From: Chitinophagales bacterium
GTDB lineage: Bacteria > Bacteroidota > Bacteroidia > Chitinophagales > UBA2359
Reading direction: 5' to 3'
NCBI GenBank assembly: GCA_016787295.1
Contig: JAEUUX010000244.1
Coordinates: 1-56,716, forward strand
DNA length: 56,716 nt
Shown: positions 34,677 through 56,716 of the stretch, in pieces
Position numbering within the stretch: the first letter of the stretch is position 1
Layout of the letters: each line of letters starts with the position of its first letter
The notes under the pieces: generated by a model
What the model was told of the DNA's origin: nothing
Databases searched by the model: none
Seen by the model: the letters and a program-made list of their open reading frames with translations, nothing else
Made by a program: the position numbers and the translations under genes

Positions 34677-34730
34677 ATATAAAAAAACAGTAGAAATATA
34701 AAAAATAAAGCTGAATGGGTGCTTCTGCCG

Positions 34731-34762
34731 CAAAGGTACGTCGATTTAAGGAATTACGCAAA
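34731..34762 (-). promoter_or_regulatory. Predicted parA promoter overlapping a repeat
   Basis: On the minus strand: TTTG (34759-34762), exactly 20 bp, then TACCTTTG (34731-34738), 54 bp before the parA ATG. The -33 TTTG lies inside ACGCAAATACT, a one-base variant of the GTAAATA repeat in cluster 5, so a protein bound there could block the promoter. Confidence 0.65.
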
Positions 34763-34843
34763 TACTGTTTTACTTAAATGAGTATTTTTTTTAAAAAAAA
34801 ATCCAACCAAATACTTATTTAAGTAAATACTTAAATAAGTAAG
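34752..34843. repeat. GTAAATA repeat cluster 5 with perfect 12-bp inverted repeat
   Basis: It contains ACGCAAATACTGTTTTAC and GAGTATT at 34755-34786, and CTTATTTAAGTA-AA-TACTTAAATAAG at 34814-34839, a perfect 12-bp inverted repeat with an AA centre over one GTAAATA core. It lies between the parA promoter and the iterons. Confidence 0.85.
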
Positions 34844-35020
34844 CCTTTTTTATAAATCTTCCAATAACAAAAGATAAGGCGATTTGAAAAAAATAAAAAA
34901 AATTTAAAAAAACAAAAACGGCTTTAGTGATTTAATACTAAAGATTTTTACTAAAGATTTCTTGAGGGTGTACACTGTCTTGTATACTTAAAATATTTAT
35001 TCCTTATATACAGCCGAAAA

Positions 35021-35106
35021 CCGTACAAAAAATTCCGAAAAAACCGTACAAAAAATTCCGAAAAAACCGTACAAAAAATTCCGAAAACCGTACAAAAAAT
35101 TCCGAA
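35021..35106 (+). repeat. Four replication iterons
   Basis: CCGTACAAAAAATTCCGAA occurs at 35021-35039, 35044-35062, 35067-35085 and 35088-35106. Start spacing is 23, 23 and 21 bp, i.e. about two helical turns, so the bound initiator would lie on one face of the DNA. All are direct and perfect. Confidence 0.92.
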
Positions 35107-35244
35107 GTCTTATTTGTCAGGGAAAAACAATTGGTTGTTAGCTTCTATTGGTACTTTTTTTATGTATAACTTAGTGATTTTCAGTAGTATAAACAATAAA
35201 ATAAAGGCTATTAAAAATAATTGCAATGTTATAGCAGGTTTTTT

Positions 35245-35404
35245 TTGTGGATAAAATTGTGGACAAAACTTGCCAAAATGTGAATAACTTTATTTTTACA
35301 ATTTTGTGACAAAATGCCAAAATGTGATTTTTGAATTTGTATAAAAAATGACAATTTTGTGACAAAAAATGATATATTTTGCCATTTTTTACAATTTTGT
35401 GACA
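35245..35404. repeat. DnaA boxes and second repeat family of the origin
   Basis: DnaA-type sites on the minus strand: TTATCCACAA (35245-35254), the near-match TTGTCCACAA (35258-35267) and TTATTCACA (35279-35287). Next come ACAATTTTGTGAC at 35298-35310, 35351-35363 and 35391-35403, and TGCCAAAATGTGA at 35271-35283 and 35315-35327. The last two families may be extra initiator or host-factor sites. Confidence 0.75.
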
Positions 35405-35476
35405 TTTTTTGAAGTTTTTGCAAAACGTCGTTCACACTAATTTTTTGCTTTGGCAAACGATATATCAAAAAATGAG

Positions 35477-35484
35477 TAACTTTG
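35477..35484 (+). promoter_or_regulatory. Predicted -7 box (TAACTTTG) of rep
   Basis: A TAnnTTTG match 24 bp before the ATG at 35509. A TTTG at 35449-35452 is a possible -33 element but has a long, 24-bp spacer. The box overlaps the TTG codon that would otherwise extend the Rep frame, which supports the ATG at 35509 as the start. Confidence 0.55.
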
Positions 35485-35508
35485 AGCCAAAATTCCAATA
35501 AAATACCT

Positions 35509-36975
35509 ATGTCAGTCATTAAAGCAAACAAACTCATCGAGGCAAGTTACAAACTAACCTCTCGCGAACAGTGTTTTATTATCTATTTGGTGTCGCTGAT
35601 TTCGAGCGAAGATACAAGTTTTCAAGAATACACGATGAGCATTCACCAAATCAAAGCAGTTTTGAATTTTGATGGACAAAAACGCGTGGCAAATCATGAA
35701 GACGTTTTTTCGATGATAAAAAAACTCAACTCTGTTGCCATTCGCTACGAAGACAGCGTAAAGGCAGTTGAAGTACCATGGATTATCAAAACCGAATTGG
35801 ACAAAACCACCGACACCTTCACCTTTCAGTTTTCGCCCGAGCTAAAAGGTTTTTTACTCCAACTCAAAGAACATTTTACCAAATACCACATCGAAAACAT
35901 CATGCACCTTAACGGACACGCCATTAGGTTGTATGAAGTATTGAAGCGCTATCAATTTCAGAAACAATGTACTTTAACAGTCAGACAATTAAAATTCTTT
36001 TTGGGCATTGAAGACCTTTATCCTGAATACTACGAATTTAAGCGACGAGTTTTGGTGTTTGGTCAGCAGGAATTAAAAAAATATACCGATATTTGTTTTG
36101 ATTTTGAACCTGCCGAAAAAGAAGGCAAACAAGTCATAAGTCTGTTGTTTACTATCCATGAAAACACCCCCAACATCAAAACAGAACCACAGTTGCCTAC
36201 GCTTGGTGAGGTAACTACAGTTGCTCCGAGAAGCATCATTGCCAGCACCTTGGAAGAAATTGCCAAAAAATATACGAAACCACAATACGAAGCCATCATG
36301 CAGTTACAAGACTTGGGCATAAGTCTGTCATTTATCCAAAACACCATTATTCCCAACATCAAGAGTAGCGAATTGATGGGCTACGAAGATTGGTACGTGT
36401 CAGAAATGTTGCAATACTTTCTCAAACACTCCCACGTGAAAAATGAAAAAGGCAGAGCCGCAGTATTCGTTAATTGGTATAAACAAGGCATTTTTACGAC
36501 CGATACCATTGCCGCCTCACTCTTGGAAAAAACTTTGGCAAGAAAAAAAACAATTAGCGACCAGTGGCGCAATTTGAGACAAAGCGCCACCAATATGAGC
36601 GCAGCAGCTTTTGATGCCCTGCAAATTTTGCAATTCGAATATGACGATAAAAATAAAACCCGCCCAGAAGCACAAAAACAGCCCACAACAAACGATAAAC
36701 CTAAAAATAGCATAGGAAGTAGTAAAAAAACAAAACCCGCTCAGAGCAGCCAAAAAGGGCTTTTTAGCAAAGACACATCTAAAGGAACTTTTTCTGTTGA
36801 GCAATTTCAGCTACAATATCCTATGACATATACCGAAATCGTGCAACAGCAAGAACAACTCTATCAAACCTATTTCAATATCTCCAAAAAAGAACTCTAT
36901 GAGCAATATGAACGACACATCACCAATAGCATACACCAACATTGCTTAAAATGGTGGCAAGAAAAACAACAGTAA
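35509..36975 (+). CDS. Rep_3-type (RepB family) replication initiator
   Basis: 488 aa from the ATG at 35509. Residues ~1-230 have the double winged-helix pattern of plasmid initiators: VIKANKLIEASYKLTSREQC at the start, then FSMIKKLNS, then the second-domain signature INGHA-like LNGHAIRLYEVLKRYQF and LRQLKFFLGIE-like RQLKFFLGIEDLYPEYYEFKRRVL. In the family such proteins bind iterons, melt the origin and autoregulate. The C-terminal 250 residues are a long, Lys/Gln-rich extension (GSSKKTKPAQSSQKGLFSKD) ending in a helical segment, common in Bacteroidota initiators. It is divergent from parA across the origin and downstream of the iterons. Confidence 0.93.
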   Translation: MSVIKANKLIEASYKLTSREQCFIIYLVSLISSEDTSFQEYTMSIHQIKAVLNFDGQKRVANHEDVFSMIKKLNSVAIRYEDSVKAVEVPWIIKTELDKTTDTFTFQFSPELKGFLLQLKEHFTKYHIENIMHLNGHAIRLYEVLKRYQFQKQCTLTVRQLKFFLGIEDLYPEYYEFKRRVLVFGQQELKKYTDICFDFEPAEKEGKQVISLLFTIHENTPNIKTEPQLPTLGEVTTVAPRSIIASTLEEIAKKYTKPQYEAIMQLQDLGISLSFIQNTIIPNIKSSELMGYEDWYVSEMLQYFLKHSHVKNEKGRAAVFVNWYKQGIFTTDTIAASLLEKTLARKKTISDQWRNLRQSATNMSAAAFDALQILQFEYDDKNKTRPEAQKQPTTNDKPKNSIGSSKKTKPAQSSQKGLFSKDTSKGTFSVEQFQLQYPMTYTEIVQQQEQLYQTYFNISKKELYEQYERHITNSIHQHCLKWWQEKQQ

Positions 36976-39947: not shown

Positions 39948-40031
39948 TAATGATGAGTGAAGATGCAAAATCTAATAACACATTCAAATTATCAGCAGAC
40001 ATTCCCTAATTTGGCGAACAACCAAGAGTCT

Positions 40032-43000
40032 ATGAAAAATAACTACTTATTACATACAATAGTCATATTTTTACTGTCTTGCGCAGCAACTTCATGGGTT
40101 GTTGGGCAAAATATATCTTTGGAAATAGACGGTGATAATTTATATTATGATGAGAGCGGCTGTTCTGATTGTTATTCGACACCCGACCCCGATTGGTATG
40201 TCCGTCTTCAGGTCAATGCTGTTAACTATGACTGGAATGTGCATCGTGAAGATACTAATTGTGGCTGGCAAGGAACTACTAATTATTCCTATTATGGTCC
40301 CAATACTGTTACATATAGTACATCAGCTACCATGCAGCTCAATGGTGCTGAAATTGATGGCGGACTTTGTGGAGGTGATGACAATGTTTGCGGTGGTTAT
40401 AGTACCGTAAATACTGTCACACCATCTGCCTCACCTCCTTGTCAATGGAACTATTACACAGGCACACGTACTTGTGGTGGTGGTGATTATAGAATCTATT
40501 GGTCTGCCTATTGGCAATATCTATTCAGCCCAACCCTATCAGGAGAATCACCCACTAACCAGCTTCGTTGTCAGGGTTCTTCACCCGCAACTCTAAATGC
40601 TACTGTTAATACAGATGCCAATGGTCGTCCCTTAGCCCGTTGGTACAAGTGGCAAATTGCCAACACTCCAACAGGTGTATGGCAAGATATTCCCGGTACA
40701 CAAAATGCCACTGCCAATACCTCCTTCACCAATTTTACTTATACTCCCTACCAAATATCAGGCACACGTTACTATCGTTTTGTAGCCACTTCTAACTGTT
40801 CTGCCGATTTTTCTTCCTATACCACAGTGTCAGCCACCTATACAGTCACCTATGCCTTTGTGGCAGCAGGTGCTTATACTACCGCGCCCGGAGGTTTTCC
40901 TTACGGCACTGGCGATGGCGCACCCGCTATTATTAGTGGTGTTTGTGGTGGTACTGTTTTACCAAGCCAAAGTGTGACATTCAATACCCTACAATCTCCT
41001 AATGCAGGAGCAGTAGTGAATGCCACAGGCTATGCGTGGTCAGCATCGGGCGGAACACCTACCACAGGAACAGGTAGCAGTTTTGCTTGGACAGCACCCG
41101 CCACACCCGGTAGCTACGCCACCAGCGTAACCTACAACTTTGGTTGCTCAACACCTGCCACTGTAGCTTGCGCCGTAACAGTTGGTTCTCCCAATTGTAG
41201 TTTTGCGTATGTTGCACCCGGTGGTAGCAATACTATTACATCGGGCGGTCCCAATAACCCTTATGCAACTATTAGTTATGCCATTAGTCAATTAGCAGGT
41301 AGAACACATATCAAAGTTGCCAGCGGCACTATTACAGAAACAGCCATTATCGATATTCCAAATGCCGTGATTATTGAAGGTGGATATAGTGTAAGTGGTG
41401 GTGTTTGGACAAAGAGTTCTGCCGTGACAACTACTGTTAGCTGTAGTGGTACTCAAGTAGTCAACACTGATGTAGAACACGTTATGGGTTTTCGTTCCAA
41501 TAATACCAGCAACTGGACTTTGCAAGATTTGACTATAACCACTGTTGCTGCATCAGGCTTTACAGGTTCCGGCAATGGTAAATCTAATTATGGTGTATAT
41601 ATTGCCAATGGGTCAGCCAACTATGAAATCATTCGTTGTAATATCACAAGTGGAGCGGGTAGTACTGGTAATACAGGAGCAAATGGTAGTACTGGCGGTA
41701 ATGGTAGTACTGGTAATTTGGGGTCTAATGGTAATTGTGATTGTTATTCAGGTTGTACTCCGTGCGCAGGAGGTTCAGGTGGCGGGTCGCAAACCTCTGT
41801 AGGTGCTGGTGGTGCTGGTGCTAATGCTGGCGGTGCTGGCGGTGCTGGCGGTGCTGGCGGTGCTGGTTCTGCTGGTCAATGTAGTGGTACCAATACAGGA
41901 TCAGGTGGTGATGGTGCTACTGGTGTCAACGGAGCAAATGGTGTTGCCTCTGGTGCCAATGGAGCAACCACAGGTGGTGCCGGTGGAGCAGGTAACTCAG
42001 GTGTTTCGTCAGGTTGTAGCAATGGTAACAATGGTTTTTCAGGAGCTGTAGGTGCTAATGGTGGAGTAGGTACTGCGGGTACAACACCAGGTACGGATAC
42101 CTATACTAGTGGCTATTTAGTACCTACTGCTGGAACAGGCGGTGGCGGCGGCGGCGGCGGTAAAGGCGGTGGCGGCGGCGAAGGTGGTTCTGGTTCAACA
42201 GACAGTTTTACTTGCGACCGTGATGGCGGACAAGGTGGTTCATCGGGCGGTAGTGGCGGCGGCGGCGGCGGCGGCGGCTATGGCGGTCGCGGCGGCGGCG
42301 GCTCGTATGGTGTATTTGTTTGGGCAGGTGGAACAGGCGGAGTCATTACCAATAGCGCTGTCAATTCAGGAACAGTAGGTTCAGGTGGTACTGGTGGTTC
42401 TGGCGGAACAGGCGGAACTGGTGGTTCAGGACGTGGTGTAGGAACAGGTAACTGTGGTAGTAGTGACTCGGGCGAAGGCGGGGCATCAGGAGCAGGCGGT
42501 GCAGGTGGCACAGGTGGTGCTGGCGGAACAGGACGAGCAGGTTCACAATTCGCCGTAGCCAACCAAGGAGCAGGAACAGCCCCAACTGTTCCCGCAGGCA
42601 TTACTGTCAATACAAGCACATCAGGCGGCTCTGTACCCAATCCCGTAACTGTAACAATTCCATACAACAATACACGTCCATGTCCATATTCTCAAATACA
42701 ACTAACCAAATCATCAGGCACTTGGACGTTCCCCGCAGGTTTAACCTTAGTCAATAATTTAACTAGCTCAACAACCTCCTACACAACAGCATCTTCTCCC
42801 GTTAGTGTATATTCTACAAGCACATCGGCTGTTTATAGCCCATCTGTGGGCGGAGCTACTTATGACGAATACATAAGAATGACCAATGTAGCCCGCACCG
42901 CACCAACAATATCCCTCAACTACAACACCATTTGCGTAGGCGGTTCAATCAACGCAACTTTCAACGAAGCAGCCTATTCGCAAACCAATGTAGCTTATTT

Positions 43001-46000
43001 GTGGGAAGTATTTAGTGGTGCCTCTGCCACAGGTACACCCGTATTCACCTATACAACAGCCGCTGCAACCCTCGGAGCATTTACCACAGCAGGCACCTAT
43101 ACCGTTCGCTTCCAAGTGCAAGAGCAATGTTGTGGCTGGTCTATTCCCGTTTTCGCAACCATCACAGTCAACGCCGACCCAACAGCGCCAACAGACATAT
43201 TACCATATAATAATAGTTCTGTTTGTGTGGGAGCAAACATCGCACCAACGAGTGCTACAGGCGGATCAGGTGGAGTCACACCCTATACTTATGAATGGGA
43301 TTATAACAACGGCGCACATAGCTTTGGTACTTATGGAACTATTCCTTCTTTTGCAGCAACCAGCGGTGCCAACATTTTGCAAGTACGCATAGCTGCCAAT
43401 GCTGCGCTCGGATGCGATGCTTCTCCTCCCTATCAAGAGACCGTAACTGGTATTGACCTTCCCATAGGCGTAGCAAATCCCGCTACTCAAAACGTATGTA
43501 GTGGTGTAGCATTTACCACACCATTAACCACTTCTAACAACATCGTAGGAACAACCTATAGTATAGTAAGTCAATCTTCTAATCCGAACATTACAGGAAC
43601 AGGGACTATCTCTGGCTCCAATCTAATAGGTACGCTCACCAATATAAGCACATCTAACCAAACTGTCGTATTTACTTTGCGTCCAACAAGTCCCGCACCT
43701 GCCAGTTGTGTAGGAGCAGATTTTACAGCTACCATTGTCGTCTATCCGCCCAACATCGGTACAGGCGTTAGTGTAGGCAACAATGCACCATTCTGTTCAG
43801 GTGGAACATTGAATTTGACCGCATCAGGAGGCAGTAGTTATAGCTGGACAGGTCCCAACAGTTTTACATCATCAACACAAAATCCTACTATTAACTCCGC
43901 AACAACTACCAATAATGGTACTTATACCGTTAGTGTATCCGATGCCAATGGTTGTATTTTCACAGCTACCACACAAGTGAGCATTACTGCATTACCAACA
44001 CCAACCCTATCGTCTTCTGATGCTGATAATACCATTTGTGCAGGTCAATCTGTAACTTTCACAGGTGGCGGCGGAACGCATTACCAATTCTATGTCAACG
44101 GAACGCCACAAGGTACTTATTCTACAACCAATACCTTTACAACCACTTCGCTTACCAATGGACAAAGTGTTACCGTCCAAACCTGCAATGATGTGATTTT
44201 TGATGGAACAATCAACGAAACAGCTTGGGGAAGTCCAATTGCTACTTCGGCAGGAGGCCCCGCGCCAAGCACAGGTTTTGGTACTGGTCACGAAACCAAT
44301 GCGCTATATGTAGCTGGTGGAAACAACAATGATATTTATCTTGGTTTGGCGGGTAATGTACAAAATGGCAACCGCATTCTCGTTTTCATAGACTCCAAAT
44401 CAGGTGGTTACAATACTGCCAACTTCGGACGGTCAGGCGCTCCTGGTGGTATTAATACTTTCAATAGCGGAACAACTTTCGATACAGGATTCAATGCCGA
44501 TTATTGTTTGGTTATTGGAACAAATAGCACACACGATAACTATTTTTACGATTTATTTGCTTTAACCGTTAGTGGTTCAAACACCTATTTGGGAGACAAT
44601 AGCAATGCTAAATTAGAAGGACACCTTAGCCCAACAAGTGGTAGCAACACTCAAGGTTTTGAAGTAGCAATTCCCAAAGCATCTTTGGGCTATACAAGCG
44701 GACAAATCAAATTCTTTGTAGCCTATATTTCCGATGGTGGTTTTCTCAATAATAAATTTTTGACACCCGCTGGTAGTGGTGATGGCAATTATGGTTCAGG
44801 AGCCCTTACCTTTGGTTCAGCCGCACCCAATCCAATTACAGTTAACAATATCGACGCAGTATGCTGCAATACTTCATCTGGTATTGCCACAACTGTCAAT
44901 CCATTACCTGTTGCCACAGCAAGCAGCAATAGTCCTGTTTGTGCAGGTAGCACTATCAACCTGAGTAGCGGTCCCAATGGTATGGGCAACTATAGTTGGT
45001 CAGGACCAAGTAGCTATAGTCTTAACAGTATTAGTTATACCCAAAATTTCAATAGTTTCGGTACAACCAATGTCACTTGGACGGATAACAGCACCCTCGC
45101 AGGTTGGTATGCCGAAAAAGGTACAGGTACAGCCAACTTTACCGCTGGCGCTGCTGGCACCTTTACCGCAGGTACAGGAACCGGTACAGGGGGATCTTAT
45201 TACAACTTTGGAGCATCAGGCGGAGCAGATAGAACACTTGGCTCTCTCGCCACCAACACGATTACAGGCAATACAGGCACAGCAGCTACTAATACAGCCT
45301 TTAGATATGGTGTGAAAATCACCAATACCAATAGCTTCCCGCTCAATGCAGCTACTATTACCTATACAGGCGAGCAATGGCGCGATAATGGTAACACCAC
45401 ACCACAATATTTAGATGTAGAATATTCTACCGATGCCACTACGAACTTAAGTACAGGTACATGGACTGCCGTATCTGCATTGAGATTCACTGGTCCCATT
45501 GCTTCTGCTACAGCAACAGCTTTGGACGGTAATTTACCTGCTAATAGAACAACCATCACTTATGCTTTGACAGGTATAAACATACCCGCAGGCGGAAGTT
45601 TTTGGATACGTTGGATAGATTACAATGAAGTAGGCAATGACCATGCTTTGGGTATAGATGATTTAAGTGTATTCCTTAGCGCCCAAAATCCCTCCATACC
45701 CAACGCTACAACCGCTATGACTGGAACATATACCGTTACGGTCACTGATGGCGCGGGCTGTAGCAGTACGGCTACTACCACAGTAGTTGTCAACCCATTA
45801 CCAACTATCACCACTGCTGCAAGTGCTACTGCTGTATGTTTTAGCTCAAGTAGTCAAACAACTACCTTGGCATACAGCGCCACCACCAACTCTCCCACAA
45901 CCTATAGTATAACTTGGAATGCCTCGCCCGCTAATAGTTTTGCAACAGTCACTGATGCAACATTGCCTGCAAGTCCCATTACCATTACGGTTCCTGCCAG

Positions 46001-49000
46001 CACAGCAGCAGGAACATATACAGGCAATATTACGGTCAAAAACGCCAATGGTTGTGTAAGCACAAGCACAGCTTTCACCCTTACCGTCAACCCAACACCA
46101 ACAGCCACAGCACCAAGCAACCAAACTTATTGCGCAGGCGTAGCAACCACTGCTATCAGTTTAACAGGAACCCCTGTGGGCGTAGTCTTTGACGTAACAG
46201 GTGGTGCAGCTATTGGTCTTGCCAACCAAACCAACGTCACAAGCATTCCAGTTTTTACACCCATAGCAGGTTCTGCCACCATTAGCATTACTCCCAAAGC
46301 CAATGGTTGTACAGGTACTCCAGTTACCTATAATATAACAGTCAATGCCCTACCTGCCGCTACTGTGACCTATACAAGCTCACCGGTTTGTGTCAATGGT
46401 AGCACTATTAGTCCAACTGTCACAGGCACAACAGGCGGCACCTATTCAGCCTCGCCTGCAGGTTTGAGCATCAATAGTTCAACAGGAGTCATTACTCCCG
46501 CAAGTAGCACCGTCGGTACATATACTGTTACGTATACTATAGCTGCAAGTGGAGGATGCCCTGTTGTCACCACCACAACAACAGTCGTCATTAAACCAAT
46601 CCCATCAGCCACTATTACTTCGTCCGATGCAGATAACTCCATTTGCGTAGGCGAGTCCATCACATTCACCGCGGGCGGCGGCACACACTATCAATTCTCC
46701 GTTGCTGGAACGCCACAAGGCACTTATGGTACCACCAATACCTTTACAACAAGTTCGCTTACCAACGGACAAAGTGTATCGGTACAGGTTTGCAACGATG
46801 TTATTTTTGATGGCAATTTAACCGAAACCACTTGGGGAACAGCTTACAGTACTTCAGCAGGCGGTCCCGCATCAGGTTTTGCTAACAACCGTATTAATGC
46901 CTTATATTTAGCAAGCAATAGCACCCAATTTAATTTTGGTATAGCAGGCAATGTAGATAATAATTCAGGCAACAAAGTATTGTTATTTATCGATAGCCAA
47001 GCAGGTGGATACAACGACCTAAGTACTTGGACTAATAGAAGTGGATCCCCTTATTATTCTGTCCAAAATCTTAATAACGGTATTGTTTTCGATTCTGGTT
47101 TTGCTCCTGATTATGTAGTGGGTATTAACCAAGCCTCGGGTCAAGTATATTTTGACTTATATAATATGCAAGCCAATACCAATACTTTCCTTGGAACAGC
47201 AGGCTCAACAGGATTAGCATTTACTGCTAATACAAGTGCTACTGACTATACCAAAGGTTTTGAATTTGCCATTAATCGTACCGCATTAGGCAGTCCGACA
47301 GGCAACATTCGCGTATTTGCAATGGTAGTCAATGACCCAGGCTGTTGCGCTTCCACCACCTTGAGTAACCAATTCCTAAGCCCTGCTGCAAGTGGCGATG
47401 GAAACTATGGTAACGGAGCCGTTAACTTTGGTAGTGCAGCTCCTAATCCAGTAACCTTATCTACCTCTACCAATGTCTGTTGTTCGACCGCATCGCTTAC
47501 GATCGTCGTATCTACACCACCAACAACTACAGGTACTACCATTTGTCAAGGTGGAAGTGGCACAATTGCAGCAACTTCTACTTGTGGTGGAGCTGCAAGC
47601 ATGACTCTCAATGGAGCATGGAACGCCGCTACTGATCCTGTAGCAGACCGACCCGTATTAGGCACTAATTCTGGTGCTTGCGCTTTTCTTTCTCCCGGAG
47701 CAGTACGAAACTATGTAACTATGCCTTTCCAAGTAACCGTGACAGGTAACTATATTTTTGAAATGGCAAACAATGCTTCGTATGACGGAGAAGGATATAT
47801 CGTATCCGCAGACTTTACACCCGGACAGTGTCCCGGTACAGGCGGAACAGGAACGTGGTATCGCAATGACTCTGACAGTAGTCCTTCGGGTGACGAACCA
47901 CGCATGGGTAACGCCGCCGATGGTGGAGCAGGAGTTCTCACCCTTACAGCGGGCGTTAGCTATATGTTAGTCTCCACTACTTATGGCTCAACAGGAGGAG
48001 TAACCGCACCCTTTACTTGGAATGTTACAGGACCAGCGGGAGCAGGCATTGTTACCGATGTAATACAATGGTATACTGCTGCTTCGGGCGGAAGCCCTAT
48101 TGGCACAGGCAGTCCGTTTAATCCTGTAGGTGTAAGTGGTTCAGGTTTGCCCAATACCAATACACCCGGAACATACACCTACTACGCAGCATGTTCTTCT
48201 GCACCAAGTTGTCGTACAGCAACAACTTTTGTTATTAATCCTGCTGCCACAGCTAACGCAGGCACCGCCCAAAGTGTGTGTGCGGGTAGTACCGTAACTT
48301 TGGCAGGCAGTATAGGCGGTAGTGCAACAAGTGCAACATGGAGCGCACCAAGCGGCACATTCTCCGATGTCAATTCTTTGACTTCTACCTATACGCCAAG
48401 TATTACATCAGGAACTGTTACCTTGACATTGACGACTAATGACCCCGACGGAGCAGGACCTTGTACAGGAGTTATTTCCACTGTGGATATTACAGTCAAC
48501 GCAGTACCAACTACCACAGGTGTAACTATCTGTCAAGGAGGTAGTGGTACAATTAGCTCATCTACTACTTGCCCACCATCTTTCGCCAACGCAGGAACAA
48601 CTATAACAGGCACATGGAATGCTGCCACCGATCCCACAGCCAAACGAATTACTTCAAATATAATAAATACAAATACTTGTTCATTTGACGCTTCCATTAC
48701 CCGTAATTATGTAGCCACCTCTTTCCAAGTAAGCACAACAGGTAACTATGTTTTTGAGATGAATAACGACTCAAATTTTGATGGCATGGGTTATATCGTA
48801 ACAGGGGCTTTTGTTCCGGGAACTTGTCCAGGAGCAGGAACTTGGGTGCGTGGAGATGATGATAGCGGCTCAAGCGCCAGCGAACCCAAATTGGGTGGCA
48901 CAGGCGGTTCTGGTGCTATGCCTCTTACTGCGGGCGTAACCTATACACTTATCTCTACTACATGGGCAGCAAGTAGCGGTACATATAGTGGTAATTTCAC

Positions 49001-50048
49001 TTGGACTATTACTCCACCCGTAGGTGGACAAATTATGCTTCAAAGTTCGGGACAAATACAATGGTATACTGCTGCTTCGGGCGGAAGTCCTATTGGCACA
49101 GGCAGTCCGTTTAATCCTGTAGGTGTAAGTGGTTCAGGTTTGCCCAATACCAATACACCCGGAACATACACCTACTACGCAGCATGTTCTTCTGCACCAA
49201 GTTGTCGTACAGCAACAACCTTTGTCATTAATCCTGCTGCTACCGCAAATGCAGGTTCTGTCCAAACCGTTTGTGCAGGCGGTACCGTAACTTTGGCAGG
49301 CAGTATAGGTGGCAGTGCAACAAGTGCAACATGGAGTGCGCCAAGCGGCACATTCTCCGATGTCAATTCTTTGACTTCTACCTATACGCCAAGCATTACA
49401 TCAGGAACTGTTACCTTGACATTGACGACTAATGACCCCGACGGAGCAGGACCTTGTAGTGCTGCGACCTCGACTGTGGTCATTACTGTAAATCCAATTC
49501 CTACTGCCACAGCCAGCAACGACAGTCCTGTATGTGTAGGAGGAACAGTTAATCTAACGTCAAGTGGAGGAACAAGTTACAGTTGGACAGGACCAAATAC
49601 CTTTAGTAGTGCTACTCAAAATCCAACCATTACCAACATTCCCTTGACAGGAGCAGGTGTATATACCGTTACCGTAACGGCCGCAGGTTGTTCTTCAACA
49701 GCTACCACCACAGTAGACGTGGTAGCAGACCCGACCATTACTGTACAACCACTTGGACAAACGGTTTGTCTCAATGCAAGCACCAATTTGACAACCAGCG
49801 TTACAGGCGGAACAGGAACAACAACTTATCAATGGCAGTCCGCTACTGATTGTAACAGTACCTTTAGCAATATAACAGGAGCTAATACCAATACTTATGT
49901 ACCTCCAACCGCCACCGCAGGCACAACTGCCTATCAATGTGTAATAACCATAAGCGGTTCGGGCTGTGATACACAAATAACGAACTGCGTATTGGTGACA
50001 GTTACACCACAAGGAACAATTTCTGTTACGGTTCAGCCAGGCAACTAA
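40032..50048 (+). CDS. Giant mosaic adhesin (3338 aa)
   Basis: The ATG at 40032 opens a clear signal peptide (MKNNYLLHTIVIFLLSCAAT...GQ); the frame extends 25 codons upstream from a GTG, without signal-like sequence. In order: a Cys-containing N-terminal region; Ig-like strands; a right-handed beta-helix start (PYATISYAI, IIEGGYSV, YGVYIANGSANYEIIRCNI); a glycine-rich insert (about residues 542-837); Ig/PKD-like domains; two CBM9/DOMON-like domains beginning DVIFDGT (about 1385-1610 and 2254-2487); a jelly-roll-like module (about 1668-1883); two ~331-aa tandem modules; and final Ig-like domains. It ends VTPQGTISVTVQPGN, with no canonical T9SS tail. It is probably a surface filament or adhesin. 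Its neighbours are a 157-aa protein (23 bp on) and a similar adhesin. Confidence 0.85.
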   Translation: MKNNYLLHTIVIFLLSCAATSWVVGQNISLEIDGDNLYYDESGCSDCYSTPDPDWYVRLQVNAVNYDWNVHREDTNCGWQGTTNYSYYGPNTVTYSTSATMQLNGAEIDGGLCGGDDNVCGGYSTVNTVTPSASPPCQWNYYTGTRTCGGGDYRIYWSAYWQYLFSPTLSGESPTNQLRCQGSSPATLNATVNTDANGRPLARWYKWQIANTPTGVWQDIPGTQNATANTSFTNFTYTPYQISGTRYYRFVATSNCSADFSSYTTVSATYTVTYAFVAAGAYTTAPGGFPYGTGDGAPAIISGVCGGTVLPSQSVTFNTLQSPNAGAVVNATGYAWSASGGTPTTGTGSSFAWTAPATPGSYATSVTYNFGCSTPATVACAVTVGSPNCSFAYVAPGGSNTITSGGPNNPYATISYAISQLAGRTHIKVASGTITETAIIDIPNAVIIEGGYSVSGGVWTKSSAVTTTVSCSGTQVVNTDVEHVMGFRSNNTSNWTLQDLTITTVAASGFTGSGNGKSNYGVYIANGSANYEIIRCNITSGAGSTGNTGANGSTGGNGSTGNLGSNGNCDCYSGCTPCAGGSGGGSQTSVGAGGAGANAGGAGGAGGAGGAGSAGQCSGTNTGSGGDGATGVNGANGVASGANGATTGGAGGAGNSGVSSGCSNGNNGFSGAVGANGGVGTAGTTPGTDTYTSGYLVPTAGTGGGGGGGGKGGGGGEGGSGSTDSFTCDRDGGQGGSSGGSGGGGGGGGYGGRGGGGSYGVFVWAGGTGGVITNSAVNSGTVGSGGTGGSGGTGGTGGSGRGVGTGNCGSSDSGEGGASGAGGAGGTGGAGGTGRAGSQFAVANQGAGTAPTVPAGITVNTSTSGGSVPNPVTVTIPYNNTRPCPYSQIQLTKSSGTWTFPAGLTLVNNLTSSTTSYTTASSPVSVYSTSTSAVYSPSVGGATYDEYIRMTNVARTAPTISLNYNTICVGGSINATFNEAAYSQTNVAYLWEVFSGASATGTPVFTYTTAAATLGAFTTAGTYTVRFQVQEQCCGWSIPVFATITVNADPTAPTDILPYNNSSVCVGANIAPTSATGGSGGVTPYTYEWDYNNGAHSFGTYGTIPSFAATSGANILQVRIAANAALGCDASPPYQETVTGIDLPIGVANPATQNVCSGVAFTTPLTTSNNIVGTTYSIVSQSSNPNITGTGTISGSNLIGTLTNISTSNQTVVFTLRPTSPAPASCVGADFTATIVVYPPNIGTGVSVGNNAPFCSGGTLNLTASGGSSYSWTGPNSFTSSTQNPTINSATTTNNGTYTVSVSDANGCIFTATTQVSITALPTPTLSSSDADNTICAGQSVTFTGGGGTHYQFYVNGTPQGTYSTTNTFTTTSLTNGQSVTVQTCNDVIFDGTINETAWGSPIATSAGGPAPSTGFGTGHETNALYVAGGNNNDIYLGLAGNVQNGNRILVFIDSKSGGYNTANFGRSGAPGGINTFNSGTTFDTGFNADYCLVIGTNSTHDNYFYDLFALTVSGSNTYLGDNSNAKLEGHLSPTSGSNTQGFEVAIPKASLGYTSGQIKFFVAYISDGGFLNNKFLTPAGSGDGNYGSGALTFGSAAPNPITVNNIDAVCCNTSSGIATTVNPLPVATASSNSPVCAGSTINLSSGPNGMGNYSWSGPSSYSLNSISYTQNFNSFGTTNVTWTDNSTLAGWYAEKGTGTANFTAGAAGTFTAGTGTGTGGSYYNFGASGGADRTLGSLATNTITGNTGTAATNTAFRYGVKITNTNSFPLNAATITYTGEQWRDNGNTTPQYLDVEYSTDATTNLSTGTWTAVSALRFTGPIASATATALDGNLPANRTTITYALTGINIPAGGSFWIRWIDYNEVGNDHALGIDDLSVFLSAQNPSIPNATTAMTGTYTVTVTDGAGCSSTATTTVVVNPLPTITTAASATAVCFSSSSQTTTLAYSATTNSPTTYSITWNASPANSFATVTDATLPASPITITVPASTAAGTYTGNITVKNANGCVSTSTAFTLTVNPTPTATAPSNQTYCAGVATTAISLTGTPVGVVFDVTGGAAIGLANQTNVTSIPVFTPIAGSATISITPKANGCTGTPVTYNITVNALPAATVTYTSSPVCVNGSTISPTVTGTTGGTYSASPAGLSINSSTGVITPASSTVGTYTVTYTIAASGGCPVVTTTTTVVIKPIPSATITSSDADNSICVGESITFTAGGGTHYQFSVAGTPQGTYGTTNTFTTSSLTNGQSVSVQVCNDVIFDGNLTETTWGTAYSTSAGGPASGFANNRINALYLASNSTQFNFGIAGNVDNNSGNKVLLFIDSQAGGYNDLSTWTNRSGSPYYSVQNLNNGIVFDSGFAPDYVVGINQASGQVYFDLYNMQANTNTFLGTAGSTGLAFTANTSATDYTKGFEFAINRTALGSPTGNIRVFAMVVNDPGCCASTTLSNQFLSPAASGDGNYGNGAVNFGSAAPNPVTLSTSTNVCCSTASLTIVVSTPPTTTGTTICQGGSGTIAATSTCGGAASMTLNGAWNAATDPVADRPVLGTNSGACAFLSPGAVRNYVTMPFQVTVTGNYIFEMANNASYDGEGYIVSADFTPGQCPGTGGTGTWYRNDSDSSPSGDEPRMGNAADGGAGVLTLTAGVSYMLVSTTYGSTGGVTAPFTWNVTGPAGAGIVTDVIQWYTAASGGSPIGTGSPFNPVGVSGSGLPNTNTPGTYTYYAACSSAPSCRTATTFVINPAATANAGTAQSVCAGSTVTLAGSIGGSATSATWSAPSGTFSDVNSLTSTYTPSITSGTVTLTLTTNDPDGAGPCTGVISTVDITVNAVPTTTGVTICQGGSGTISSSTTCPPSFANAGTTITGTWNAATDPTAKRITSNIINTNTCSFDASITRNYVATSFQVSTTGNYVFEMNNDSNFDGMGYIVTGAFVPGTCPGAGTWVRGDDDSGSSASEPKLGGTGGSGAMPLTAGVTYTLISTTWAASSGTYSGNFTWTITPPVGGQIMLQSSGQIQWYTAASGGSPIGTGSPFNPVGVSGSGLPNTNTPGTYTYYAACSSAPSCRTATTFVINPAATANAGSVQTVCAGGTVTLAGSIGGSATSATWSAPSGTFSDVNSLTSTYTPSITSGTVTLTLTTNDPDGAGPCSAATSTVVITVNPIPTATASNDSPVCVGGTVNLTSSGGTSYSWTGPNTFSSATQNPTITNIPLTGAGVYTVTVTAAGCSSTATTTVDVVADPTITVQPLGQTVCLNASTNLTTSVTGGTGTTTYQWQSATDCNSTFSNITGANTNTYVPPTATAGTTAYQCVITISGSGCDTQITNCVLVTVTPQGTISVTVQPGN
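41655..42545 (+). repeat. Glycine-rich low-complexity insert with GGC microsatellites
   Basis: Encodes (GGX)n sequence such as GGAGGAGGAGGAGSAG. At DNA level: 9-bp GGCGGTGCT tandem copies near 41830-41868, and GGC trinucleotide runs near 42139-42161 and 42254-42277. It interrupts the beta-helix: strands continue after it (YGVFVWAGGTGGVITNSAVN). Confidence 0.85.
48063..49457 (+). repeat. Near-identical 402-bp duplication within the giant adhesin
   Basis: Copies at 48063-48464 and 49056-49457 (993 bp apart) share almost all bases, differing mainly at silent positions and in one short stretch (GTAQSVCAGST against GSVQTVCAGGT). They are the second halves of two tandem ~331-aa modules whose first halves have diverged (VTICQGGSGTI start). 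Confidence 0.85.
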
Positions 50049-50071
50049 TTGGCACAAAAAATTAACCAACT

Positions 50072-50545
50072 ATGAAACAAGTATTCTTTTTCTTATTAGG
50101 TATTATAAGCATTATTGGAAATAATGTTGTGGCGCAAAACACAGCTTTGCCTCCTGATTTTCCTACTTATCAAGACACAGGAAATCCTGATAAAGACATA
50201 AATGCCTATAACCAAGACAAAGATGTTTGGGTAAAAACTCATCAACAACAATACCTAAACTTGCAACAACAGGAAGCACAAATAAAACTTATCGATGAAA
50301 AAGAATTAGCTGCAATGCCAATTGATAAGCAAAAACAGATTCTTAGCAATCCTGATAAATACAAGGTGGTAAATATAGGTACTACTTCTCCCAATAAAGA
50401 GCAAGAGTTGATAACTAATACCGATGTAAAGCAATCTGGTCAACTGATGAAACACCAATTGACAAAAAATCAGTTGCAAAAAGCCTCGCCAGAAAAGCAA
50501 ACTTTTATTAAAAACCACCCAGAATGGTATGAAATAGTGGAATAA
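50072..50545 (+). CDS. Small secreted protein of unknown function, between two adhesins
   Basis: 157 aa. Signal peptide MKQVFFFLLGIISIIGNNVV...AQ. The rest is polar with two helical stretches (VWVKTHQQQYLNLQQQEAQI, EQELITNTDVKQSGQL) and ends SPEKQTFIKNHPEWYEIVE. I recognise no family. It is 23 bp after the giant adhesin and 28 bp before the next one, so it is co-transcribed. The position suggests a chaperone, export partner or subunit for the adhesins, but no sequence feature shows it. Confidence 0.75.
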   Translation: MKQVFFFLLGIISIIGNNVVAQNTALPPDFPTYQDTGNPDKDINAYNQDKDVWVKTHQQQYLNLQQQEAQIKLIDEKELAAMPIDKQKQILSNPDKYKVVNIGTTSPNKEQELITNTDVKQSGQLMKHQLTKNQLQKASPEKQTFIKNHPEWYEIVE

Positions 50546-50573
50546 CAATTACTTCCCTTCAAAATCATTCGTT

Positions 50574-53500
50574 ATGAAAAAATTAATGCTTTTTAAGTAT
50601 ACCATATTACTTTTTGTGGTGATATCTCTTTTTTTCTATTCCAACAATATCTTTGCACAATGTACTTGTGCAGGGACTGACTATGGTAGTATTAATGTAG
50701 CAGGTTGGACAGTTGGGCAAAGTGGTACTATCACTACTTGTCAATATGGTGGTGAGCGTTCTACTATATTTAATACTGTAGCAGGTGCTGTATATAGAGT
50801 ATCTACTTGTGGTGCTGGCTATGATACACAACTATCCATCTATACAACAGCTTGTGCATATATCGCCTATAATGATGATAATGGTCCAGCTTGTACAGGT
50901 ACTGCTGCTTCAGTGCAATTTACATCTCCTGGCGGCAATTTATACGCTAAAATGAATCAGTATAACTGTATAACAAATACAACTTGTACAACAGTTACTA
51001 TTCAGTTGATTAGTTTGCCAACTATTCCTTTTTCAGGAAATAATTCCTACACTTATTGTAGTACAACTTTGTATGAACATGGAGCAACAGGAAATTATTC
51101 AGACAATGCCAATGGATATACAGTGCTTTATCCCACAGGAAGCAATTTTATCAATATATCAGGAACTACATCGGGCGAATCTTGTTGCGATTATGTAAGA
51201 GTATATAATGGTGTGGGTACGGGCGGAACAATTTTAGGTACTTATTACATGAATACCGCTATCCCAACTCTCGCCTCTACTGATGCTACAGGTGCTTTAA
51301 CCGTACAGTTTGTTTCAGATATTTCTATAGTAGGAGCAGGTCCTGTTATCAATGTATCTTGTTGTACTCCATTAGGCAATCCCGCAGTTTTTGGTAGTAA
51401 TCAATGGAATGTATATGCTTACAATGGAGCTGGTTTGAACCTAACTGGACGCTATGCAGGGACTTATACTGAAACTGCTTTGAGCTATGATTCAGGAACA
51501 AGGTGGACAACAACAGGCACTCCTTCGAGCGCATCAGGCTACACAGGTTGTACAGTGGGCATAGACAATCATGCTGTAGTATACAAAAGACAAGGTTTTC
51601 CAGCAGGTAATTATGCTTTAAGTATTCCTACTCATGATGATGATATTAGAGTATACATTAATGGTAGCCAAGTCTTTGAACATATAGGTTGTTGCGATGC
51701 ACACAATAATTTTTGGTGTGGTTATTTAGATGGAACCTCTACCATAGAAGTGCGCCATTCTGAAGGCTCTGGAGGGTCACAACAAGCCCTTACATTTACT
51801 TCCACAGGCGACCCTACTGTATATGGTACTAATCAATGGAATATCTATAATTATGCAGGTAGCAATTTCAATACCTATTATGGCTATGCCACTAATACTA
51901 CCACTTCAGAATTTAACTTAGGAGCATTTGGCATGGGAGCTACCACCAATCCAAGTGTCTTAAGTGGTTATGTTGGTTGTAATCCGGGTAATGACAACTG
52001 GAGCATGAGAGCCAGACGACAAGGATTTCCTTGCGGTGTATACAATATTAATTTGGTAGGACATGATGACGGTTATACCATAAACATAGATTACGATGGT
52101 AATGGAACAGTAGATAATACCTATACTGCGACTTGTTGTAACATAGGTTTAGGGACAAAATGGACAGGTGTTCTAAATGCTGCCTCAAGAGTGGAAATTT
52201 TACTTTCTGAAGGAAGCGGAGATGCTTACATAGACATAGATTTTGTAAACATAACGCCAGCCGTCAATGGTGGCACTATTGCAGGTATAACCAACGGTGT
52301 AACTATCTGTACAGGAGGAGATCCAGGTGTATTTACTAATGGCAGTAGTGCAAGTGGCGGAACAGTAGGCTACCTCAACGGAGGCAGTTTTGCCTACCAA
52401 TGGGAACTTAGCGTGAATGCCGGAGCATACAGCAACATAGGTGGGGCAACAGGAGCAACTTATGACCCCACAGCATTAACCACAGGTACTTATATCTACC
52501 GCCGCCGAGCAACCGATATGTGTGGCAATAATAATGTGGCTAATACCATTCAAGTCAATGTAGTAGCGGATCCAACCATTACCACACAACCCCTAACCAC
52601 ACAAACCTTATGTGTTGGTGGCACACCTACCAATCTCACTACCGCAGCCACAGGAGGTTCAGGAACATTTACTTATCAATGGTATTCCAACACTATCAAT
52701 AGCAATAGCGGCGGCACCAACTTGGGTAGTGCCAATGGCGCACAAACAGCTACATATACTCCACCAACAAATACAGTAGGAACACTATACTATTACTGTG
52801 TTATTAGCCAAACGGGTACGGGTTGCGACCCACTGACCACCAATACCGCAGCAGTTCTCATAATAGCAGATCCCGCCTTAACCACACCTACGCTCACCAA
52901 TGCCAATATTTGCATAGGTGGTTCAACTACTATCAGTACAACTGCTTCGGGTGGTACTGGTACTTTCTCCTATCAATGGCAGTATTCTGCCGACGGAATA
53001 AGCGGCTGGGCAAATGTTACCAACGGAACGCCCACTGGCTACACCTACACCAATGCAACAACCGCTACCTTAAATATCGCCACAACTAATACTTCACCCA
53101 CAGGAAACGCATACTACCAATGTGTCCTAACACCCAACACTCCTGCAACAAGTGGTTGTAATGCCACCTCAACCGTAGCCACTTTAACTATTGTGGCAGA
53201 TCCAACCTCGCCTACTACTGCTACCAAAACACCCAATGCTACTTCTGTTTGTGAAGGCTCAACCCTAACAATTGGCACACCAACAGGTGGTAATGCAGGC
53301 ATTGGCTGTACACTAGAATATAGGTATACACAAGACGGTGGGTTAAGTTATTCTACTGTATCTACTACAATCCCAACTTTAACTGCCAATTTAGGTGGTT
53401 ACGATGCTATTCAAGTACGACGCAATAACTGTTTATCAGGTTGTGACCAACCTACAGCATGGCAAACTATCGCTCAATGGACAGTTATAGCAGACCCCAC

Positions 53501-54728
53501 CATAACAGGCACTTCACAACCACCAAATCCTATTTGTCCAGGTGGTAATGGAACAGTGTCCGTAACTGCCGCAGGCGGAACAGACGGAACAGGAGCCACC
53601 GTACAAACATATCAATGGCAATACTCAGCCGATGGAGTAGGAGGGTGGGCAAACGTAGTTAATGGCACTCCCACAGGTATCAGTTATACAGGTGCAACAA
53701 CTGCCAATCTATTAGCCTCAACCACCAATGGTACAACACCCGCAGGAATATACTACTATAGATGTATTGTTGGAGCAACAGGCGATAATTGTGCAACAGT
53801 CACTTCTGCTGTTTTATCCATTACAGTAGTAGCAGAAGCTACTGCCCCAACAGCTACCATGTCTCCCGCCGCTACTACCGTTTGCGTAGGTACAGCCCTG
53901 ACGCTCACCAATCCAGTATTAGGTACAGGAGGAGCTGGCTCACAAGTATTTGAATATAGTATAGTTAGTAGTTCATCTGGTTTTAGTACTACACTACCCA
54001 CTATCAATACAAGTACAGCAGGCAGTTATAGCATCTGGATAAGAACAAATCCAACAGGCTCGGGTTGCAATATTTCACCTACTACCCAATATACATGGAC
54101 CGTCGTAGCAGACCCCATAGCACCTACCCTCAATACAGCCACACCTACCAACAACTCCAATGTATGTGTGGGAAGTACAGTAGCTGCTACTTTTAATGCT
54201 GGAAGTCAAGGGACAGGTTGTACAGACGAATACCAATATTCAACTGATAGCGGAACAACATGGACTACATACACGCCAGGTTCAAACATAACAGCCCTAA
54301 CAGCAGGACAGACAATCCTAATACAAGGACGACGAAATTGTACAGGCAATAGTTGCGATGGAGTAGCAGAAACCTTTGCTACGCTCGCCCAGTGGACAAT
54401 CGTACCACAACTATCCATATCTGCTCAAACCAATAACCAAGCCCTTTGTATTAATGGAACAGCCACACTAAGCGTTACAGCTACAGGCGGTTCAGGAACA
54501 TACAACTACCAATGGCAATCAGCCTCAACTTGTAGCGGACCATTCACCAATATAATAGGTACCAATAGTGCTACATATACACCACCTACCACTAGTGTAG
54601 GAAGTATAGCCTATCAATGTATCATAACAACAACGGCTAATGGATGTAATACGCTTACCACTAATTGCATAGTAGTTACTGTCACATCACAAGGAACAAT
54701 TGCCATCAATGTGCAAGCAGGTCCGTAA
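50574..54728 (+). CDS. Adhesin with CUB-like, two PA14-like and Ig-like domains (1384 aa)
   Basis: Signal peptide MKKLMLFKYTILLFVVISLF...AQ. Next comes a Cys-rich pre-peptidase-like domain (YRVSTCGAGYDTQLSIY, about residues 30-140), then a CUB-like segment (CCDYVRVYNGVGTGG, about 145-265). Two related ~145-aa domains follow (about 270-560), each with NQWN(V/I)Y.Y, a RQGFP.G.Y.(L/I)......DD block, a CC pair and a final (R/V)....SEGSG signature. Six to seven Ig/PKD-like domains rich in TVVADP linkers fill the rest. It ends VTSQGTIAINVQAGP, close to the end of the giant adhesin, and lacks a canonical T9SS tail. Probably a sugar- or protein-binding surface protein. It lies 28 bp after the small 157-aa gene. 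Confidence 0.85.
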   Translation: MKKLMLFKYTILLFVVISLFFYSNNIFAQCTCAGTDYGSINVAGWTVGQSGTITTCQYGGERSTIFNTVAGAVYRVSTCGAGYDTQLSIYTTACAYIAYNDDNGPACTGTAASVQFTSPGGNLYAKMNQYNCITNTTCTTVTIQLISLPTIPFSGNNSYTYCSTTLYEHGATGNYSDNANGYTVLYPTGSNFINISGTTSGESCCDYVRVYNGVGTGGTILGTYYMNTAIPTLASTDATGALTVQFVSDISIVGAGPVINVSCCTPLGNPAVFGSNQWNVYAYNGAGLNLTGRYAGTYTETALSYDSGTRWTTTGTPSSASGYTGCTVGIDNHAVVYKRQGFPAGNYALSIPTHDDDIRVYINGSQVFEHIGCCDAHNNFWCGYLDGTSTIEVRHSEGSGGSQQALTFTSTGDPTVYGTNQWNIYNYAGSNFNTYYGYATNTTTSEFNLGAFGMGATTNPSVLSGYVGCNPGNDNWSMRARRQGFPCGVYNINLVGHDDGYTINIDYDGNGTVDNTYTATCCNIGLGTKWTGVLNAASRVEILLSEGSGDAYIDIDFVNITPAVNGGTIAGITNGVTICTGGDPGVFTNGSSASGGTVGYLNGGSFAYQWELSVNAGAYSNIGGATGATYDPTALTTGTYIYRRRATDMCGNNNVANTIQVNVVADPTITTQPLTTQTLCVGGTPTNLTTAATGGSGTFTYQWYSNTINSNSGGTNLGSANGAQTATYTPPTNTVGTLYYYCVISQTGTGCDPLTTNTAAVLIIADPALTTPTLTNANICIGGSTTISTTASGGTGTFSYQWQYSADGISGWANVTNGTPTGYTYTNATTATLNIATTNTSPTGNAYYQCVLTPNTPATSGCNATSTVATLTIVADPTSPTTATKTPNATSVCEGSTLTIGTPTGGNAGIGCTLEYRYTQDGGLSYSTVSTTIPTLTANLGGYDAIQVRRNNCLSGCDQPTAWQTIAQWTVIADPTITGTSQPPNPICPGGNGTVSVTAAGGTDGTGATVQTYQWQYSADGVGGWANVVNGTPTGISYTGATTANLLASTTNGTTPAGIYYYRCIVGATGDNCATVTSAVLSITVVAEATAPTATMSPAATTVCVGTALTLTNPVLGTGGAGSQVFEYSIVSSSSGFSTTLPTINTSTAGSYSIWIRTNPTGSGCNISPTTQYTWTVVADPIAPTLNTATPTNNSNVCVGSTVAATFNAGSQGTGCTDEYQYSTDSGTTWTTYTPGSNITALTAGQTILIQGRRNCTGNSCDGVAETFATLAQWTIVPQLSISAQTNNQALCINGTATLSVTATGGSGTYNYQWQSASTCSGPFTNIIGTNSATYTPPTTSVGSIAYQCIITTTANGCNTLTTNCIVVTVTSQGTIAINVQAGP

Positions 54729-54818: not shown

Positions 54819-56716
54819 ATGAAACACGTTTACCTAAGTATTATTACTGTATTGGTATCTTGGTGTTGTATGCAGAACACACAAGCTCAAAGTACAACTA
54901 CAATTTGTACGGGAGGGACAGCTGTACTTACAGCTACATTAAGTGGAGGAACGGATTGTACAGTGTTGTGGGAGCAAAGTAGTTCCGCGACAGGTCCTTG
55001 GACTGCCACGACCCTTACAGAAAGCCCTACAAATGTGTTTACTACACCCCCCCTAACGGTTACTACCTACTATCGCGCACAGTATTTCTGTACAGGTAAT
55101 GGCTGCGACGACCCCTACGCATCGCCAGTTACCGAAGTAATTGTTGTTCCTGATCCAGTAATAACAGTTACAAGCCCACTAACCGTATGCTCTTTAACCG
55201 ATCTTACTGTGACTACTTCAGGTGGAGCAGGAACTTGTACTATTCAATGGCAATCATCTACCACAGGCACAGGTGGTTGGACTGATATTAGTGGAGCCAA
55301 TACAAGTACCTATAATGCTCCCGCCGAAGATATAGTCATGTACTATAGAGCTACTTATACTTGTGTGGGTAGTAGCAATTGTAACCCTGCCACTTCAGCT
55401 ACCATTACGGTCAATCCAAGACCTATTGTTAGCAATCAAACTGCAACAATATGTTCTGATGTGGTAAATGGTGTAACGCTTAATAGCGCAACAAATAGTG
55501 TACCTATTAGTGGGTATAATATAACTTCTATTAATGCAAATGGCTTAACAGCAAGTGCAGGTAGTCCTGTCACAGGCACTAATTTTACTAATGCTGAAAT
55601 TAGTAACGATGCTTGGACAAATACAACAGGCGCTCCCGTTAACGTCATATATACTATCGTGCCAGTAAGTGATGCTTCGTGTACCGGAGATCCGTTTACT
55701 GTTACAATCACCGTTAATCCCGAACCCGTTGGCGTAGCAACACCAGCTTCACAAACCGTATGTTCCGATGTAGCGATTACGACCATAGCCTTGACAACTT
55801 CAAATAGTTTAACAGGCACAACTTTCGCATGGACACGTGACAATACGACCAATATCACGAACCTATCGGCTAGTGGCAGTGGCGACATCAGCGGCACACC
55901 AAACAACGTGACAGGTAGCAGCCAAACCACGACTTACACCATCACCCCAACGAATGGTGGTTGTGTGGGCAACGACTTTACAGCCACTGTAACTGTTAAT
56001 CCCGAACCCGTTGGCGTAGCAACACCAGCTTCACAAACCGTATGTTCCGATGTAGCGATTACAACTATAGCATTAAGCACAAGCAACAGCTTGACAGGCA
56101 CAACTTTCGCATGGACACGCGACAATACGACCAATATCACGAACCTATCAGGTAGCGGCAGTGGCGACATCAGCGGCACACCAAACAATGTGACAGGCAG
56201 CAGCCAAACCACGACTTACACCATCACGCCAACGAATGGTGGTTGTGTGGGCAATGACTTTACCGCCACAGTTACCGTTAATCCCGAACCCGTTGGCGTA
56301 GCAACACCAGCTTCACAAACGGTATGTTCCGATGTAGCGATTACGACCATAGCCTTGACAACTTCAAATAGTTTAACAGGCACAACTTTCGCATGGACAC
56401 GCGACAATACGACCAATATCACGAACCTATCAGGTAGCGGCAGTGGCGACATCAGCGGCACACCAAACAATGTGACAGGCAGCAGCCAAACCACAACTTA
56501 CACCATCACCCCAACAAGTACAGATGGTTGTGTGGGCAACGACTTTACAGCTACTGTAACCGTTAATCCCGAGCCAGTGGGCGTAGCAACACCAGCTTCA
56601 CAAACCGTATGTTCCGATGTAGCGATTACGACCATAGCCTTGACAACTTCAAATAGTTTAACAGGCACAACTTTCGCATGGACACGTGACAATACGACCA
56701 ATATCACGAACCTATC
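54819..56716 (+). CDS. Adhesin of tandem PKD-like domains (3' truncated by window edge)
   Basis: The frame runs from the ATG at 54819 to the edge without a stop (632 codons seen). Signal peptide MKHVYLSIITVLVSWCCMQN...AQ. Ig-like domains follow (CTVLWEQSSSATGPW, CTIQWQSSTTGTGGW), then a diverged PKD-like domain (about 55418-55715). From 55716 there are near-identical 94-aa PKD-like units (NPEPVGVATPASQTVCSDVA ... TFAWTRDNTTNITNL ... CVGNDFTATVTV). Such units occur in giant surface proteins of the phylum, often of thousands of residues, so much more probably lies to the right. A C7 run near 55047 is noted. It starts 90 bp after the 1384-aa gene, co-directional. Confidence 0.88.
   Translation, partial: MKHVYLSIITVLVSWCCMQNTQAQSTTTICTGGTAVLTATLSGGTDCTVLWEQSSSATGPWTATTLTESPTNVFTTPPLTVTTYYRAQYFCTGNGCDDPYASPVTEVIVVPDPVITVTSPLTVCSLTDLTVTTSGGAGTCTIQWQSSTTGTGGWTDISGANTSTYNAPAEDIVMYYRATYTCVGSSNCNPATSATITVNPRPIVSNQTATICSDVVNGVTLNSATNSVPISGYNITSINANGLTASAGSPVTGTNFTNAEISNDAWTNTTGAPVNVIYTIVPVSDASCTGDPFTVTITVNPEPVGVATPASQTVCSDVAITTIALTTSNSLTGTTFAWTRDNTTNITNLSASGSGDISGTPNNVTGSSQTTTYTITPTNGGCVGNDFTATVTVNPEPVGVATPASQTVCSDVAITTIALSTSNSLTGTTFAWTRDNTTNITNLSGSGSGDISGTPNNVTGSSQTTTYTITPTNGGCVGNDFTATVTVNPEPVGVATPASQTVCSDVAITTIALTTSNSLTGTTFAWTRDNTTNITNLSGSGSGDISGTPNNVTGSSQTTTYTITPTSTDGCVGNDFTATVTVNPEPVGVATPASQTVCSDVAITTIALTTSNSLTGTTFAWTRDNTTNITNL
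55716..56716 (+). repeat. 282-bp tandem repeats encoding 94-aa PKD-like domains
   Basis: Units begin at 55716, 55998, 56280 and 56565 (periods 282, 282, 285; the third has one extra codon, TSTDG in place of TNG). The units are nearly identical at DNA level, which points to recent expansion. The fourth is cut by the edge. Confidence 0.95.

Follow-up and report, generated by a model that had tools for sequence, protein, structure and literature searches.

The window analyzed here is a contig of 56,716 nucleotides from a Chitinophagales bacterium, and the locus under study lies at its 3' end. It consists of four genes in the same direction, separated by 23, 28, and 90 nt, which encode a giant adhesin (ORF1), a small secreted protein (p157), a second large adhesin (ORF2), and a third adhesin (ORF3) that is incomplete on the contig (Table 1). 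The open reading frames (ORFs) of 3,338, 157, and 1,384 amino acids (aa) described in the first-pass annotation were recovered with the same lengths and stops. The start of ORF1 was placed at an ATG, and its reading frame is open already from a GTG at position 39957. ORF1 and ORF2 have clear N-terminal Sec signal peptides, as judged by eye, followed by tandem Ig-like or PKD-like repeats, the organization of Bacteroidota Ig-like repeat adhesins. The N-terminal part of ORF2 is also present in other large ORFs of the order. Within the signal peptide of ORF1 (positions 40032 to 40110), the residues LLSC are readable as a lipobox, and this putative motif could provide ORF1 with a lipid anchor. For the comparisons below, the genomes searched were samples with one genome per species, and gene models outside the window were the longest ORFs from the first ATG.

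Table 1. Features of the adhesin locus (positions in the window)
Feature	Position	Strand	Remarks
ORF1, 3,338-aa adhesin	40032-50048	+	Signal peptide, Gly-rich part, PKD-like and Ig-like repeats
ORF1 last Ig-like domain	49716-50006	+	48-50% identical to ORF2 counterpart
ORF1 tail	50007-50045	+	PQGTISVTVQPGN; putative A-strand register of next repeat
p157, 157-aa small secreted protein	50072-50545	+	Likely partner of ORF2
ORF2, 1,384-aa adhesin	50574-54728	+	Signal peptide; no sorting domain
ORF2 last Ig-like domain	54390-54686	+	Seven strands predicted by AlphaFold2
ORF2 tail	54687-54725	+	SQGTIAINVQAGP; predicted coil
ORF3, third adhesin	54819-56716	+	Cut by contig end within PKD_5 repeats

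Large secreted adhesins of this genome carry C-terminal T9SS sorting domains of type A, B, or C (TIGR04183, TIGR04131, and NF033708). These types have been described previously (PMC10202324), and those of type B function together with specific shuttle proteins (PMC12618676). Across the genome, type A domains number at least 150 and type B domains about 40. Neither ORF1 nor ORF2 has a domain of any of the three types at its C-terminus, and searches with NCBIfam and Pfam models found no sorting domain in either protein. A genome-wide search with TIGR04131 gave no match on this contig, and among the matches listed for TIGR04183 there were exactly eight type A domains on the contig, none of them in ORF1 or ORF2. 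Both the missing T9SS tail and the eight other sorting domains of the window, as claimed in the first-pass annotation, were thus borne out. We also considered a sorting domain hidden past either stop codon. Past both stops, the intergenic DNA is unrelated and leads into new genes that begin with signal peptides; therefore, no sorting domain is hidden in another frame, and this possibility was rejected. The literature searched contained no account of adhesins that end like ORF1 and ORF2 and none of atypical T9SS domains.

The remainder of the contig provides some context. A gene for a Rep3-type replication initiator adjoins a ParA-like gene at positions 34047 to 36975, a pairing that points to either a plasmid contig or an integrated plasmid within it. 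The ORF at the very start of the contig (positions 2 to 676) is open at its 5' end and has a type A sorting domain at its end after a PKD-like stretch. A circular contig in which this ORF would form the end of ORF3 was rejected, as no terminal overlap was found and the first ORF contains no PKD_5 repeat. No continuation of ORF3 was found on another contig.

Up to their stop codons, the C-termini of ORF1 and ORF2 read TPQGTISVTVQPGN and TSQGTIAINVQAGP, respectively. In both proteins, an Ig-like domain is directly followed by a tail of 13 residues with the pattern QGTI-x3-VQ-x-G, which confirms the shared Ig-like end and closing motif noted earlier, at about 50% identity. When the last 110 aa of ORF2 were used as the query, the best match was the end of ORF1 (E = 3.4e-28, 50% identity). 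The next copy of the end domain in the genome is internal to ORF2 (E = 3.5e-15) and stops short of the tail. Among the grounds that would refute a distinct terminal signal, the first-pass annotation had specified that the domain be common at internal positions. This applies to the Ig domain, which has many internal copies, but not to the tail, which is specific to protein ends; among the three adhesins, QGTI is present at the ends of ORF1 and ORF2 only. Homologs ending in the motif, which the earlier annotation had proposed to collect, amounted to none besides ORF1 and ORF2 when queries of 110 and 39 aa were run against the genomes of 60 relatives and in a contig scan.

The two end domains have diverged with a dS of about 1.3 and a dN of 0.38. 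Because this synonymous divergence is high, the common end is old, and, as judged from these substitution rates, the end domains of ORF1 and ORF2 are old paralogs. The dN/dS ratio is 0.27 in the domain and about 0.33 over the 13 tail codons, the latter value being based on few sites. Ratios near 0.3 in both parts, maintained over an old divergence, argue against recent decay.

AlphaFold2 predicted a confident seven-strand Ig domain at the end of ORF2 (mean pLDDT, 90.5) and modeled the tail as coil (pLDDT, 74 to 79). T9SS domains are also small beta domains, and the T9SS is present in this genome, so the last Ig domain could itself be a strongly diverged T9SS sorting domain. We consider this explanation highly improbable: the ORF2 end domain shares 48% identity with a repeat inside ORF2 itself, its 50 best matches among solved structures are mostly Ig domains and include no T9SS domain, and no T9SS model matches it. 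In contrast to the T9SS sorting domains, then, ORF1 and ORF2 end in an Ig fold.

Our reading of the tail itself comes from a profile in which 86 internal Ig repeats of many Bacteroidota were each continued into the repeat that follows. The profile runs through both tails to position 103-104, which corresponds to the first strand of the next repeat, before its cysteine. Against this profile, whose repeats were gathered with a query containing the ORF2 tail, shuffled tails matched the real score in 3 of 500 cases for ORF1 and in 13 of 500 for ORF2. Direct alignment of the tails with the junctions within ORF1, ORF2, and ORF3 was no better than that of shuffles; the weight therefore rests on the profile test. 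Moderate evidence thus suggests that the tail may represent the A strand of one more Ig repeat that breaks off before the conserved cysteine. The repeats are the same as those in the Ig_7/PKD_5 arrays of Bacteroidota adhesins, and the tail aligns in register with the beginning of one more repeat. The difference is that the arrays of ORF1 and ORF2 end one strand into that repeat, with no sorting domain following.

Plain truncation would leave just such an end, one strand into a further repeat. The 3' part might have been lost by repeat recombination, in both genes or in one ancestor whose end was then copied, and the start of the next repeat would be an accidental end without function; the proteins may then stay in the periplasm or be released. 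Consistent with this, the tail is conserved no better than the domain before it, although the comparison involves few sites. It is harder to reconcile truncation with the fact that both proteins stop at the same place despite long divergence, and that their long reading frames and intact signal peptides persist. On balance, truncation is a possible but tentative explanation, to which we return below.

The same genome encodes several further proteins without a T9SS domain, whose C-termini read CPPAKCIPITVTKQ, CPPPKCITIGITKH, or similar. An NCBIfam model for such tails exists (NF058574, CVP-CTERM putative sorting domain); in this genome and its family, these short, strand-like tails come right after the final domain of adhesins that have no T9SS domain. 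No paper naming CVP-CTERM was found in the literature searched. NF058574 exceeded its cutoff in 6 of 298 genomes of the order. A search profile that we built from nine of the tails gave 12 matches in the same genome and 18, 11, 9, and 5 in four further genera of its family; two genomes from another family of the order had a single weak match each, of which the one in genome G124 is a genuine protein C-terminus, CSPCPTTRCLPITISKH. The CVP-type module lies at the stop codon in the loci that were read. Strictly C-terminal Cys-Pro tails were seen at loci L125, L126, L127, L130, L132, L135, and L136 of the same genome, with three CVP-tail genes in a row at L130, and at L168 to L187 of relatives. 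Next to CVP-CTERM genes of several relatives (L176, L177, L178, L180, L181, and L182) lies a gene whose product, about 490 aa long, has an EKRFF-like motif close to its N-terminus; the gene varies in orientation, and its product has no convincing Pfam match.

The ORF1 and ORF2 tails might be cysteine-less relatives of these tags with the same putative sorting function. Such tags occur at 12 places in the genome, in genome G002 a CVP-type tail of comparable length comes immediately after an Ig domain like that of ORF1 and ORF2, and ISVTVQPGN resembles ISVSITPNN of genome G017 by eye. However, the class is marked by conserved cysteines and a proline, and the ORF1 and ORF2 tails, though C-terminal, lack all the defining cysteines and the C-x-P core. 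NF058574 does not match them at its cutoff or even at an E value of 10, and in a profile of 46 CVP-type tails, 69 of 500 shuffled ORF1 tails and 246 of 500 shuffled ORF2 tails scored equally. We therefore regard a relationship with CVP-CTERM as unlikely. The suggestion of a dedicated new export signal in the first-pass annotation was likewise not upheld, since the tail was found in no other protein of the genomes searched and matches the opening strand of a further repeat better than a CVP-type tag.

The start of ORF3 offers another possible role for the tails. Mature ORF3 begins with QSTTTIC, at the strand that precedes the conserved cysteine, and the predicted fold of its first Ig domain lacks the first (A) strand. 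In a comparison of N-terminal Ig domains covering only six proteins, the five others keep the A strand. Because this domain of ORF3 lacks its A strand, we considered donor-strand docking, in which a tail would complete the domain. ORF1 and ORF2 would then hang noncovalently on ORF3 as the sole carrier of an export or anchor domain, with p157 as a dedicated secreted helper. Type V pili provide a parallel: a C-terminal strand is proposed to fill the groove of the next subunit, which is opened by removal of an N-terminal strand (PMC5954841). The likeness of FimA and Mfa1 to the ORF1 and ORF2 tails and the first domain of ORF3 lies in this filling by a terminal strand, and we claim no sequence relation. 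The looseness of the tail in the AlphaFold2 model would be in keeping with docking. However, joining the tails to the first domain of ORF3 raised the profile score of that domain no more than random C-termini or shuffles did, and the comparison of N-terminal Ig domains comprises six proteins. Docking of this kind, with ORF3 as the only carrier, is very doubtful.

The small protein p157 has no match to any family. In the 298-genome sample of the order, no homologs were found in other genomes at an E value of 1e-4; at 0.01, homologs were found in 22 other genomes of a 395-genome sample of the class. We read the surroundings of 14 matches, and 12 of them lie directly before a giant adhesin-like ORF, as p157 does before ORF2. 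The homolog in L248 is broken by a stop and still precedes an adhesin, that in L249 comes after the adhesin, and in genome G018, from the window's own family, a diverged relative of p157 (pairwise E = 4e-12) precedes one. ORF1 has no p157-like gene of its own. The earlier idea that the small protein assists the adhesins on either side of it therefore stands in part: its homologs recur beside giant adhesins, but the pairing is with the downstream adhesin rather than between two. Some of these adhesins have a T9SS domain of their own, of type B in L245 (45 bits) and of type A, just under the cutoff, in two proteins of L247. The missing domain is therefore no rule of the pair, a point that favors truncation.

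One p157 cluster is informative with regard to export. In genome G412, a p157-like gene is followed by genes for a 2,606-aa adhesin, a 258-aa secreted protein, and a 591-aa protein; the last of these has a type A domain (49.2 bits), and the adhesin and the 258-aa protein have no sorting domain. Secreted proteins of 258 to 333 aa with a TFTITDxNGC-like end and no sorting domain also lie near adhesin genes in three genomes (L254:8403-9179, L281:9656-10657, and L284:4180-5121), twice in p157 clusters.

The recurrence of p157 homologs beside giant adhesins in distant relatives suggests a multiprotein complex. Together with the gene order, the 12 of 14 loci in which the homolog precedes an adhesin and the G412 cluster with a T9SS domain on its last gene only lead us to favor an operon in which one member has the sorting domain. 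We propose, with a probability of roughly one in three, that ORF1, p157, ORF2, and ORF3 form a multisubunit adhesin operon in which export or anchoring is by way of a partner; functionless truncation is almost equally probable. In the proposed model, the four genes would be cotranscribed and their products would form one surface adhesin. ORF1 and ORF2 would enter the periplasm by ordinary signal peptides, with no outer membrane sorting domain of their own. Their shared end would consist of a final full Ig repeat and the A strand of one more, absent repeat, rather than a dedicated sorting tag. Binding to a partner with a T9SS domain, possibly the truncated ORF3, would bring them to the surface or keep them there. 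ORF3 would carry this domain at an end that lies beyond the assembly. In this scheme, p157 would be secreted and would assist ORF2.

Inventories of Bacteroidota surface proteins usually go by the presence of a T9SS domain. If adhesins without this domain ride to the surface on operon partners, these inventories miss some members. The recurring p157-adhesin pair offers a direct handle on partner export, and the CVP-CTERM tails, for which a model exists but no published account in the literature searched, offer a second handle on export without a T9SS domain.
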